A stretch of DNA of 36,168 nucleotides, taken from the NCBI GenBank assembly GCA_021741905.1, contig JAIOWZ010000013.1, positions 1 to 36,168 of the forward strand, given 5' to 3'. This DNA comes from Candidatus Planktophila sp. GTDB taxonomy: Bacteria; Actinomycetota; Actinomycetes; Nanopelagicales; Nanopelagicaceae. The notes under the pieces are model-generated. The model was not told where the DNA came from and searched no databases. It was given only the letters and a program-made list of their open reading frames with translations. Of this stretch, positions 25,471 through 33,664 are shown one piece after another. The first letter of the stretch is position 1; the number at the start of each line of letters is the position of its first letter. A program made the position numbers and the translations under genes.

Positions 25471-25828
25471 ATCTAACCCACGTGTTCTAAGCACTTTAGA
25501 ACGTGCCGGAGGCTTTGCCAGCGCACAAGAAGTATATAAATTGATGCAGCGCGAAGGTGAAAAAATAGGTTTAACCACTGTTTATCGTTCCTTGCAAAGT
25601 CTGGTCAATGACAAGATTGTTGATGTATTGCGACGCGATGATGGTGAAGCAATTTATCGTCTCTGCGGAGAAAACCATCATCACCACCTTGTGTGCAAGA
25701 GCTGTGGCGAGACCGTTGAAATTGAAGGTGTCGCAATTGAAAAATGGGCGAAAGCAATGGCCGCAGAACATGGTTTTAGAGATGTCGGACATACCGCAGA
25801 GATCTTTGGTCTCTGCTCAAAATGTTAA
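25463..25828 (+). CDS. zur: Fur-family metalloregulator, probably Zur
   Basis: A 121-residue Fur-family repressor from GTG 25463 (GGAAA 6 bases upstream); an upstream TTG is less likely. The DNA-binding helix region [12 protein letters not shown] (36-47) is followed by the dimer domain with [10 protein letters not shown] (72-81) and GLCSKC at the very end; C78, C81, C118 and C121 make the structural zinc site. It overlaps the ZIP importer gene and lies between glyS and uppS, where mycobacterial zur also lies, which favours zinc rather than iron. Its 3' end overlaps the convergent uppS by 4 bases. Confidence 0.88.
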
Positions 25829-30366: not shown

Positions 30367-30879
30367 CTAGATAACAAAGAAATCAGCGTGATCAAGCATG
30401 GTTCTTGGCGCTAAATCTTTAGTAATGACCGCGTTAGCGCTAATTCTAGATCCCTCGCCAACGGTGACATTTCCGAGCACCCGTGCCCCAGCGCCAATAA
30501 TCACATTATTTTCAATGGTCGGATGGCGGTTACCCTCTTCAATCCCACGAGCACCCAGTGTTACATCGTGATACATCATCACATCATCACCGATAACTGA
30601 AGTTGCACCGATGACAACACCCATACCGTGGTCAATAAAAAAGCGACGGCCTATTTTTGCTGCTGGATGAATTTCAATTCCGGTTGAAGAACGCACCAAG
30701 TTGGAATGAATACGCGCAATCAATTTGAGTCGGCGGTTCCATAAGAAATGTGAAATTCGATGTCCCCAAATCGCATGCACACCTGGGTATGCCAAAGCGA
30801 CCTCTAAACGATTACGCGCAGCCGGATCATGGCTCAGCGCGTTATCAAGGTCTTCAATGATGCGACTTAATATTGGCAT
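30367..30879 (-). CDS. cysE: serine O-acetyltransferase
   Basis: A 170-residue enzyme of the shorter CysE type: an N-terminal helical domain followed by a left-handed beta-helix of hexapeptide repeats (from about residue 70, [30 protein letters not shown] onward) with the family's DHG and HPTI blocks. It acetylates serine with acetyl-CoA to give O-acetylserine, the substrate of CysK encoded just upstream. Three bases separate it from the cysK stop with no Shine-Dalgarno, so it depends on cysK translation and hence on the same control. Confidence 0.95.
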
Positions 30880-30882
30880 GAA

Positions 30883-31809
30883 TTAGTCAACCAAATCCTC
30901 ATAGAGAACTGTTGATAGATAACGCTCACCATTTGACGCACAGATAACAACGATGTTCTTGCCTGCAAACTCTGGACGCTTTGCAATCTCTGAAGCCGCC
31001 CACAACGTTGCACCAGATGAAATACCAGCAAGGAAGCCTTCTTCTGCACCAGCACGGCGTGCATACTTAATTGCATCTGCCGCTGTTGCATCCAAGATTT
31101 CATCATAAACGGTGCGATCTAAAACATTAGGAATGAAGTTAGCTCCAATTCCTTGAATTGGGTGTGGTCCTGGCTCTCCACCATTTAAAATTGGAGATGC
31201 AGCTGGTTCGACACCAAACACCTTAATTGCAGGATTCTTTTCCTTTAAGTATTGCCCAGTACCAGTAATTGTTCCGCCTGTACCAATGCCTGAAATGAAT
31301 GCATCAACCTTGCCATCTAGATCGCGCCAGATTTCTGGTCCAGTTGTTGTGCGGTGAATAAAAGGACCTGCTTCGTTTTCAAACTGGCGAACTAACACAG
31401 CGCCAGATTCGGCAAGCTTTTCTGCAGCAGCAACTGCGCCCTTCATGCCTTCACCAGCTGGAGTTAGTACTAACTCTGCTCCGTATGCACGAATGAGCTT
31501 GCGACGCTCCTTTGAAACTGACTCTGGCATCGTCATAATCGCCTTATATCCACGTGCTGCCGCAACCATTGCAACTGCAATTCCGGTGTTTCCAGATGTT
31601 GCTTCAACAATTGTTCCGCCTGGCTTTAGTTCACCACTTGCTTCTGCAGCATCAATCATGGCAACGCCAAGACGATCCTTCACAGATGAAGTTGGGTTAT
31701 AGAACTCGAGCTTGGCATAAACGTTTCCCGCCGCGCCATCTGTGATCTTGTTGATACGCAGTAATGGTGTGTTTCCAAAAATTTCTGTGATGCTGTTATA
31801 GACCTTCAT
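30883..31809 (-). CDS. cysK: cysteine synthase (O-acetylserine sulfhydrylase A)
   Basis: A 308-residue fold-type II PLP enzyme. The PLP lysine is K44 in NPTSSVKDRLG; the phosphate and substrate loop TSGNTGIA (71-78) and GTGGTITGTG follow. It replaces the acetyl group of O-acetylserine with sulfide to form cysteine. The ribosome binding site AGGGGAGAAC is unusually strong for this window. A 74-base spacer separates it from an upstream cysteine-rich leader ORF that very likely controls cysK and cysE. Confidence 0.97.
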   Translation of the reverse strand: MKVYNSITEIFGNTPLLRINKITDGAAGNVYAKLEFYNPTSSVKDRLGVAMIDAAEASGELKPGGTIVEATSGNTGIAVAMVAAARGYKAIMTMPESVSKERRKLIRAYGAELVLTPAGEGMKGAVAAAEKLAESGAVLVRQFENEAGPFIHRTTTGPEIWRDLDGKVDAFISGIGTGGTITGTGQYLKEKNPAIKVFGVEPAASPILNGGEPGPHPIQGIGANFIPNVLDRTVYDEILDATAADAIKYARRAGAEEGFLAGISSGATLWAASEIAKRPEFAGKNIVVICASNGERYLSTVLYEDLVD

Positions 31810-31883
31810 AGTTCTCCCCTAAAAATAGTTTTTGATTTTGGTGAAATGGTGAAAAATTGACTGGCAGCGAAAAAGCAAAAGAA
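31810..31883 (-). promoter_or_regulatory. leader-to-cysK spacer with strong, possibly sequestered RBS
   Basis: This 74-base spacer ends in AGGGGAGAAC, the cysK ribosome binding site (31811-31820). Its GGAGA can pair with TCTCC (31902-31906 on the minus strand), which lies inside the leader ORF between its first and second Cys codons. A ribosome held at the last Cys codons would cover that segment and free the site. The pairing is only five base pairs and has not been folded computationally. The spacer is otherwise T-rich and shows no intrinsic terminator. Confidence 0.4.
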
Positions 31884-31961
31884 CTAGCAGCTACAAGATG
31901 TGGAGAGGCAGAAATCAACAACACGGTTTCGTGTAAATAACCAGTTGATGATCGTAAGCAT
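31884..31961 (-). CDS. cysteine-rich leader peptide upstream of cysK-cysE
   Basis: A 25-codon ORF (ATG 31961 to TAG 31884) whose peptide ends CLSTSCSC: four... of its last eight residues, three are Cys (codons 18, 23 and 25), with TGC the very last sense codon. TAGAAT lies exactly 6 bases before the ATG, so the ORF is probably leaderless and starts the cysK mRNA. Actinobacteria (studied in mycobacteria) use short ORFs with Cys codon tracts to sense charged tRNA-Cys: slow translation at the Cys codons exposes the downstream ribosome binding site. The same layout here implies that cysteine shortage raises cysK and cysE translation. Too short for ordinary gene finders. Confidence 0.72.
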   Translation of the reverse strand: MLTIINWLFTRNRVVDFCLSTSCSC

Positions 31962-31967
31962 GTGCAA

Positions 31968-31973
31968 ATTCTA
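31968..31973 (-). promoter_or_regulatory. -10 box of cysK operon promoter
   Basis: TAGAAT on the minus strand, 6 bases before the leader-peptide ATG at 31961, so the leader ORF would be the first thing transcribed. No strong -35 is seen. Confidence 0.6.
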
Positions 31974-31997
31974 CTGAATTGATTTATTTAAGCGAGT

Positions 31998-32012
31998 TGC
32001 AAATGATTTGCA
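31998..32012. promoter_or_regulatory. palindrome upstream of cysK promoter
   Basis: TGCAAATGATTTGCA, a perfect 6-3-6 inverted repeat centred about 44 bases before the proposed transcription start of the cysK operon and 2 bases after the nadE stop. The position suits an activator or repressor site. No T tract follows, so it is not a standard terminator of nadE. Confidence 0.4.
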
Positions 32013-32014
32013 GG

Positions 32015-33664
32015 TTACTGCTCATTCCAGCGTGAGGTCATTGGCAGGCGGCGATCTTTTCCAAATGCTCGCGCAGAGACCTTGGTGCCAGGTGGATATT
32101 GGCGACGTTTGTATTCAGCCTTATCAACTAGTGAAATAACACGGCGCACTAATTCAGGGTCAAAGCCATCGGCAAGTAGTACTTGGTAGCCATGATCCTC
32201 ATCAACATATGCTCGCAGCACCTGATCCAACAGTTCATAGTCAGGCAATGAATCAGAATCCTTTTGATCTGGACGCAGTTCAGCACTTGGCTCTTTTGTT
32301 ATTGATCGCTCAGGAATTGGTGGGGTTTGCCCGCGCTCCACCGCCACCGCATTTCGATATCTAGCAAGCGCCCACACATCAGTTTTATAAATATCTTTAA
32401 TCGGAGCAAAGCCGCCTACGGCATCTCCATAAAGTGTTGAATATCCAACAGCTAACTCACTCTTATTGCCTGTGGCCAAAACTAGGTGGCCCTCTTGGTT
32501 AGAAATACCCATCAAAGTGGTTCCGCGAACTCGCGCCTGCAGATTCTCTTCAGCTAAACCATTTAAAACAAGGTTGGCCATATAGGCATCAACCATCGGT
32601 GCAATCGGTGTGGTTCTGAAGTGAATGCCGGTGGCATCTGCCAAAGTCTGGGCATCTTCGACAGAATGACTCGATGAATACTTACTTGGCATTGCAACAC
32701 CATTGACCCGCTTGGCACCCAAGGCATCAATTGCAATTGCAGCCACCAATGCCGAATCAATACCACCAGATAATCCAAGGACTACAGATTTAAATCCATT
32801 CTTGCCAACATAATCACGAAGGCCCATAACAAGGCCCTGCCACATTTCGGCTTCATTGGACAAACGTGTTTCAACTGCTGGTGCTACAGAATCAGCATGA
32901 GAAGTTTGTTCTTCAGAAATTACTACATCTGGTCGTGAACTACCTTCGGCACATTCAATATCAACAACTATGAGTTGATCATCAAACTGGGCGGTGCGAG
33001 CAATTACTGCTCCATCTTTGCCAACAACAATGCTGTCGCCATCAAAAACCAAATCATCCTGACCACCTGTCATGTTGACGTAAGCAACAGGTGCTCCAAT
33101 TTCCTGGGCCCGCTTTTGAACTAGCGCCAATCGGACATCATCTTTGTTGCGCTCAAACGGTGAGCCGTTCGGAACAACCAATAAGCCAGGGGTTCTCTCT
33201 GAAATTGTTTCTAGTGAATGCCAAATGTCTTCACAAATTGCAACTGCTACATCAACACCATGGATTCGCACTACAAGGGTTTGATCCCCGGCCACAAAAT
33301 TTCGAAACTCATCAAAGACGCCGTAATTGGGTAAGTGGCGCTTTACATATCTAGCCTTGATCTTTCCCTCATGGATTACCGCAACTGCGTTCTTAGGCCC
33401 TTTGTCCAGATACCCAACAACTGCCACTAAATCACCAGTAATTCCAGCGGCAATCTCTTCGACAGCTTTGATGCTGGCTGCTTGAAAAGATGGTCGAAGT
33501 GCTAGATCTTCAACGGGGTATCCAGTCACAATCATTTCGGGGAAAACAATCAGATTTGCGCCTTGCCCTTGAGCATCTCTTACTGACTTAGAAATGAGCC
33601 CAGCATTGCCCGCAAGGTCACCAACGGTTGGGTTGATTTGGGCTAGCGCCACGCGCAACTTCAT
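32015..33664 (-). CDS. nadE: glutamine-dependent NAD+ synthetase
   Basis: A 549-residue two-domain enzyme. The N-terminal nitrilase-like glutaminase domain has the triad E43 (VFPEMIVTGYP), K108 (RYVKRHLPNYG) and C144 (AICEDIWH); the C-terminal synthetase has the P-loop LSGGIDSALVAAI. It converts nicotinic acid adenine dinucleotide to NAD+ using glutamine as the ammonia source, the last step of NAD synthesis. The ATG has no Shine-Dalgarno but TACACT exactly 6 bases upstream. It diverges from panB across 74 bases. Confidence 0.96.
   Translation of the reverse strand: MKLRVALAQINPTVGDLAGNAGLISKSVRDAQGQGANLIVFPEMIVTGYPVEDLALRPSFQAASIKAVEEIAAGITGDLVAVVGYLDKGPKNAVAVIHEGKIKARYVKRHLPNYGVFDEFRNFVAGDQTLVVRIHGVDVAVAICEDIWHSLETISERTPGLLVVPNGSPFERNKDDVRLALVQKRAQEIGAPVAYVNMTGGQDDLVFDGDSIVVGKDGAVIARTAQFDDQLIVVDIECAEGSSRPDVVISEEQTSHADSVAPAVETRLSNEAEMWQGLVMGLRDYVGKNGFKSVVLGLSGGIDSALVAAIAIDALGAKRVNGVAMPSKYSSSHSVEDAQTLADATGIHFRTTPIAPMVDAYMANLVLNGLAEENLQARVRGTTLMGISNQEGHLVLATGNKSELAVGYSTLYGDAVGGFAPIKDIYKTDVWALARYRNAVAVERGQTPPIPERSITKEPSAELRPDQKDSDSLPDYELLDQVLRAYVDEDHGYQVLLADGFDPELVRRVISLVDKAEYKRRQYPPGTKVSARAFGKDRRLPMTSRWNEQ

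Follow-up and report, generated by a model that had tools for sequence, protein, structure and literature searches.

A conserved Cys-codon leader ORF before cysK-cysE in freshwater Nanopelagicaceae, a probable cysteine-sensing attenuator

Directly upstream of the cysteine synthesis genes cysK-cysE in a 36,168-nucleotide stretch of Candidatus Planktophila DNA (hereafter the window) lies a 25-codon ORF with three Cys codons towards its end. We consider it most likely that this leader controls cysK-cysE by attenuation that senses Cys-tRNA. We favour this reading because the leader and its -10 box recur before cysK in 45 of 135 genus genomes, because the peptide is under purifying selection and keeps a Cys nine residues past a conserved Asp (D+9), because it is homologous to Cys leaders found across the class, and because the cysK Shine-Dalgarno sequence (SD) pairs with the ORF more than a synonymous control does and is predicted to open when a ribosome sits at the Cys codons.

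The leader ORF and its locus

The features that we refer to below are as follows.

30367..30879, minus strand: cysE, serine O-acetyltransferase (TIGR01172, 221.3 bits against a cut-off of 210.65)
30883..31809, minus strand: cysK, cysteine synthase A (TIGR01139, 433 bits against a cut-off of 350.95)
31812..31820, minus strand: cysK SD AGGGGAGAA (from the sequence and an alignment of 40 leaders, A3)
31884..31961, minus strand: leader ORF MLTIINWLFTRNRVVDFCLSTSCSC, stop included, 25 codons (from sequence, conservation and selection)
31887..31889, minus strand: Cys codon 25, nine residues past Asp16 (Cys in 40/42 distinct genus ORFs)
31893..31895, minus strand: Cys codon 23 (Cys in 39/42 distinct genus ORFs)
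31902..31913, minus strand: candidate anti-SD TTCTGCCTCTCC, codons 17-20 (from alignment folding and single-sequence folds)
31908..31910, minus strand: Cys codon 18 (Cys in 42/42 distinct genus ORFs)
31920..31935, minus strand: possible hairpin, codons 9-14 (two synonymous third positions covary, few independent contrasts)
31968..31973, minus strand: -10-like TAGAAT, six bases 5' of the leader AUG (from sequence)
31992..32012, minus strand: operator-like TGCAAATCATTTGCAACTCGC, Nur-box-like (tTGCaa-N5-ttGCAA), 30 nt 5' of the leader AUG, one of the assembly's three perfect pattern sites
32015-33664, minus strand: nadE, the gene 5' of the leader, 53 bases from the leader ORF

Read directly on the minus strand, the leader starts with an ATG at 31959-31961 and stops with a TAG at 31884-31886, 74 bases before the cysK ATG (at 31809), and the TCTCC within it occupies 31902-31906. 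A preliminary description had named the TAGAAT box, the ATG, Cys codons 18, 23 and 25, the 74-base spacing, the TCTCC and the SD, and every one of these positional details proved correct. A simple scan detected no sigma-70-like promoter at the leader, and an Rfam search of 31500-32300 detected no riboswitch or T-box, its two matches (E 2.3 and 4.3) lying on the opposite strand and far under the gathering scores. Between the leader ORF and cysK there is no terminator; the only terminator-like match falls inside the ORF (31921-31934; 0.2 expected).

Conservation and selection within the genus

A search of 61 genus genomes yielded 20 close cysK loci with readable upstream DNA, 19 of which have the ORF in the same position, the exception being L017 in genome G041. 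A leader profile run against 135 genus genomes returned 46 strong matches from 45 genomes, each at an E-value no higher than 1.6e-14; all 46 have a TANNNT box at the leaderless distance 5' of the start codon, and all 46 have cysK downstream (45 found by script and L083 by eye). Recurrence before cysK at this rate, in 19/20 loci and 46/46 profile matches, is far beyond chance. The preliminary description would have been refuted had relatives lacked the ORF or its Cys codons, and this comparison came out in its favour. Weak profile matches in L091, L097, L098, L100 and L101 have no leader core and were taken as chance.

Over 42 distinct genus ORFs (from 44 of 78 nt, the set also used for codon covariation), pN/pS is 0.18, and it is 0.08 over codons 7-18, the most constrained part; Asp16, Phe17 and Cys18 are each invariant (42/42). 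The expectation that the rest of the leader would drift around its Cys codons was therefore wrong: on these comparisons, purifying selection covers the entire peptide. The kept peptide body and D+9 Cys suggest that the nascent chain matters, and not the Cys codons alone. Three leaders (L008, L009 and L088) end in GCC rather than CSC and have spacers to cysK of 128-159 nt, that of L008 containing the palindrome ATCTGAAATTTCAGAT. One bin, G091, holds two differing leader-cysK copies, L038 (C67) and L082 (C32), possibly from two strains binned together.

Kinship with actinobacterial Cys leaders

The window peptide had no match in NCBIfam (at E 10) or Pfam, and cysK leaders from other genera scored 15-18 bits against NCBIfam (cut-off 45; 27 for cis_reg_atten) or had no match. 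Such leaders, for example MFEIKEWLFTRRRIIDFGRITTCSC (L196), bridge the genus type to class-wide leaders, among them VSARLELMLTKRRAVDLCRVAGCCCCCCSC (L163), which exceeds the Ms5788A cut-off (54.9 against 45 bits) and precedes DUF4395-like and rhodanese-like ORFs. In profile-profile comparisons (hhalign) of sets that we chose ourselves, the cysK leaders gave 96.4% against the class-wide set and 98.6% against the bridge set, and the bridge set gave 97.6% against the class-wide set; the class-wide match supports the earlier suggestion that the leader on cysK-cysE is related to the mycobacterial Cys leaders. Given this homology and the lack of an NCBIfam match, we class the window leader, by sequence, as a divergent variant of the actinobacterial Cys leaders and not as a Ms5788A member.

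A combined leader profile at E 0.02 matches 148/201 genomes of the order and 107/246 of the class, these matches having been inspected in part. Among 76 distinct cores from fetched loci of the wider family, the D+9 residue is Cys in 73, and at D+2 (position 18) 47 cores have Cys, 25 Gly and 4 Ala; judged from these cores, the constant Cys of the wider family is the last one, nine residues past the Asp, rather than the one at position 18. Sixteen of the best 80 named loci for the window CysK have such a leader (15 MAGs and one isolate chromosome, L178); L195 alone of these is titled Nanopelagicaceae, and the other 15 presumably belong there too. The remaining 64 (including Microbacteriaceae, Cellulomonas and Mycolicibacterium) have no leader by our motif rule, which may overlook very divergent ones. 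Four MAGs titled Bifidobacterium breve or Streptomyces griseus (L180, L181, L184 and L196) have a CysK 73-90% identical to that of the window and the same leader type, and their titles look wrong.

The available parts of two studies describe cys operons, cbs, cysA2, Rv0485 and nirA as preceded by Cys leaders (Seliverstov 2005, PMC1262725; Shell 2015, PMC4633059), those of a third mention conserved cysteine-rich regulatory short ORFs (Smith 2022, PMC9094748), and an excerpt of a citing paper (PMC13236596) describes the M. smegmatis Cys leaders as translational attenuation. Among the matches listed, the open-licence literature contained no report of a Cys leader in this lineage.

Other Cys leaders in the genus and the assembly

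A second leader type, MFFTKRRVIDYCRITSTSC, comprises 26 leaders (25 in the genus and L149 in another genus), each with a rhodanese gene downstream (26/26; of 27 loci tried, L099, at a contig end, was unmatched). By simple patterns, 10 of these 26 starts look leaderless and 16 stand behind an SD-like sequence. Leaders resembling TKRRVIDYCRITSTSC precede rhodanese in L062-L081, L092-L096 and L149. In many loci the rhodanese gene is followed by a second ORF with an ERGRFCF stretch, presumably YeeE-like; the piece of it that we tested had no Pfam match.

Two further leaders in the assembly itself, MLLAATKRRVIDYGRIAASLCLA and MLLAATKRRVIDYGRMTASLCIA, are followed by DUF4395, Fur-family and YgfZ-like genes. 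Loci L135 (G000:C44) and L136 (C14) are two DUF4395-Fur-family-YgfZ-like operons with a Cys leader and the operator, and each has an inverted repeat, TAATTGTT...AACAATTA, that starts at the leader stop codon. Close copies of the Fur-family gene of this operon occur once in each of six single-contig genomes and twice in the assembly, and the one on C44, a 7-kb contig, may therefore not belong to this bin.

Operator and promoter geometry

The operator pattern TGCRANNNNNTNGCAASTSGC matches the assembly perfectly at exactly three places, one before each of the three leaders; since the pattern was derived from these same leaders, recovering them is built in, and the informative part is the absence of other perfect sites. 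G015, G067 and G125, which are complete, each have two perfect sites, one at the cysK leader and one at the DUF4395 leader, and none elsewhere. Perfect sites occur in 10/17 genomes scanned (none in G133, G134, G014, G066, G136, G140 and G144); the one in G062 (L279) has no clear leader behind it, and site inspection covered the perfect sites other than those of G137 and G063. One-mismatch sites were, in many genomes, not clearly above a reversed-pattern control. The strict pattern precedes 44/46 cysK-type leaders, the other two being one base off, and 30-32 nt separate the operator end from the leader start codon.

This fixed spacing suggests a transcript that begins at the leader AUG. Such a start is best supported by seven leader-free loci, in which the gene's own ATG stands 31 nt past the operator: DUF4395 in L275-L277, and cysK in L278 (G041), L189, L190 and L193, the L193 operator being one base off. 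All seven are natural leader-free versions of the leader promoter.

The Fur-family protein of the DUF4395 operon matches PDB 3EYY, which we take to be Nur of S. coelicolor, with 154 bits (the next entry has 61), and Ni-SOD is found in 10/10 genomes tested. A further Fur-family match, more remote at 34% identity, lies at 25496-25828 on the plus strand of the window, with a TAA inside the matched stretch. The operator matches, by sequence only, the Nur box tTGCaa-N5-ttGCAA, the consensus that the accessible part of PMC3919588 gives for Streptomyces coelicolor.

Pairing between the leader and the cysK SD

In the single-sequence fold of the window, codons 19-20 (TCTCC) pair with the cysK SD at 0.98, as the preliminary description had proposed for TCTCC and GGAGA, but the proposal carried over to part of the leaders only: pairing reaches at least 0.6 in 16/43 leaders, namely 16/29 WLF and 0/14 WFF leaders (single folds), and in the alignment this helix has 87% of cells paired, against 46-81% for slid versions, with 251/500 shuffles reaching 87% and no covariation. 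RNAalifold on the 40 leaders proposes a helix between UUCU.CCU (codons 17-19) and the SD's AGG.AGAA. This helix has 96.4% of cells paired (slid versions 45-79%); we did not prefer it to TCTCC/GGAGA, as it shows no covariation and reaches at least 0.5 in just 4/43 leaders in single folds. Alignment A3 holds 40 of 47 extracted leaders, leaving out three with long spacers, one with a miscalled start and three from other genera; the extraction also gave 10 loci without a usable start. The suggested folding of the leader region recovered the SD helix in the window; the overall folding energy was no better than that of shuffled sequences (z +0.83; 162/200 shuffles fold at least as well).

Mean pairing of the SD core with the ORF is 0.52, against 0.32 under synonymous-codon randomisation (36 of 41 rows, leaving out three long spacers and two miscalled cysK starts), and 10/12 WFF rows show hardly any such pairing. 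When a ribosome was simulated on 46 of the 47 leaders, mean predicted SD openness was 0.33 for the free RNA, 0.40-0.42 with the ribosome at C18, C23 or C25, and 0.39 with it at the stop. The predicted change is small in the window (0.18 to 0.24-0.29), and in L003 openness goes from 0.14 to 0.32-0.63.

A hairpin within codons 9-14 is kept as a possible lead from the aligned sequences: its two synonymous third positions covary in 27/29 Val14 rows, the best of 105 such pairs, and the pairing is mostly broken in the 13 Ile14 rows. Against shuffles it stands out on two measures (0/500) and is ordinary on two others (160/500 and 378/500), and the tree gives 3 independent contrasts, of which about 2.6 agree in direction and none runs counter (median p 0.25). 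Codons 4-6 and 14-16 were also considered as an outer stem, which was rejected because its covariation was not above shuffles.

Proposed mechanism and alternatives

In the attenuation that we favour, the transcript would begin at the leader AUG, 30 nt past the operator, and ribosomes would load on this 5'-terminal AUG and translate the leader. With Cys-tRNA charged, the ribosome would finish and leave, codons 17-20 would pair with the cysK SD, and cysK-cysE would be translated poorly; with Cys-tRNA scarce, it would halt at the Cys codons, chiefly the last one, where it would mask codons 17-20 and so expose the SD. A ribosome at the last Cys would hold the conserved TRNRVVD in its upper exit tunnel, which may strengthen the pause. 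Several results count against this reading: a ribosome at the stop is also predicted to open the SD (0.39), the change in the window is small, neither SD helix covaries, 10/12 WFF rows hardly pair, the fold is not above shuffles, and G041 retains cysK without the leader.

The unpaired WFF leaders would be accounted for if control were exerted through Rho, which would act on the bare, pyrimidine-rich spacer after leader termination and stop transcription before cysK unless a ribosome stalled on the Cys codons stood in the way, the SD pairing then being incidental. The available text of Seliverstov 2005 (PMC1262725) proposes Rho-dependent control for cys leaders. A Rho gene is present in 122/135 genus genomes and in 44/44 good ones, no terminator-like match lies between ORF and cysK, and the spacers are 47-67% pyrimidine in 38 rows of normal length (41/45 rows entered this set, four being dropped by a start rule); the three long-spacer leaders, however, have just 34-40% pyrimidine, and SD pairing is on average above its synonymous control. 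We regard Rho-dependent attenuation as the chief competitor to Cys-tRNA attenuation at the SD, and as rather unlikely.

Readings that give the leader no part in attenuation fare worse. Control of transcription only, by the Nur-box-like operator, with the leader a small peptide or relic that has no part in cysteine sensing, would fit the fixed operator spacing and the several loci that retain operator and gene without a leader, but it sits poorly with purifying selection on the peptide, the retained C-terminal Cys codons and the same core before sulfur genes class-wide, and we consider it improbable. A trans-acting small protein, which the conserved peptide body would fit, seems very improbable, as the leader stands directly before the gene in all 46 cases, its Cys-bearing C-terminus is typical of leaders, and G041 has cysK and no leader.

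Beyond Cys-tRNA attenuation as such, we tentatively raise the possibility of a two-input cassette in these streamlined freshwater Nanopelagicaceae, in which Nur-type (possibly nickel-sensing) Fur-family control of transcription would be followed by a cysteine arrest peptide set by Cys-tRNA, with the same cassette on the regulator's DUF4395 operon and the leader inserted between promoter and gene, or lost from there, in one piece. On this two-input reading, the arrest peptide would have a W-x-F-T-R-x-R-V-x-D-F core and a Cys nine residues past the Asp.

According to the available part of PMC5301498, cysteine is made by CysE and CysK in acI strain A7 and by a CysM-CysO-Mec route in three other strains. 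The leader module would give streamlined cells a concrete, testable gauge of cysteine supply and would extend the mycobacterial Cys-leader idea to cysK-cysE, with leader-free relatives as ready-made comparisons.

Comparison with known systems

Classical trp-type transcription attenuators likewise place a leader peptide rich in codons for the end product before a biosynthetic gene, but they have a terminator hairpin with a U tract, and none lies between the window leader and cysK. The Nur regulon of Streptomyces coelicolor resembles the window in that the operator fits the Nur box and that the DUF4395 operon of the Nur-like gene shares this operator; it differs in that the target here is cysteine synthesis, and the likeness is one of sequence alone. 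The actinobacterial Cys-rich leaders (NCBIfam NF042933, Ms5788A; NF042936, Ms4527A; NF042934, cis_reg_atten; Seliverstov 2005, Shell 2015, Canestrari 2020) share the short ORF, its C-terminal Cys, its place before sulfur genes, the T-K/R-x-R-x-x-D core and the D+9 Cys, and the -10 box and spacing of the genus leaders would fit their leaderless geometry; unlike them, the window type has a W-F-T-R-N-R core without an Arg after C18, and stands on cysK-cysE behind a Nur-box-like operator.
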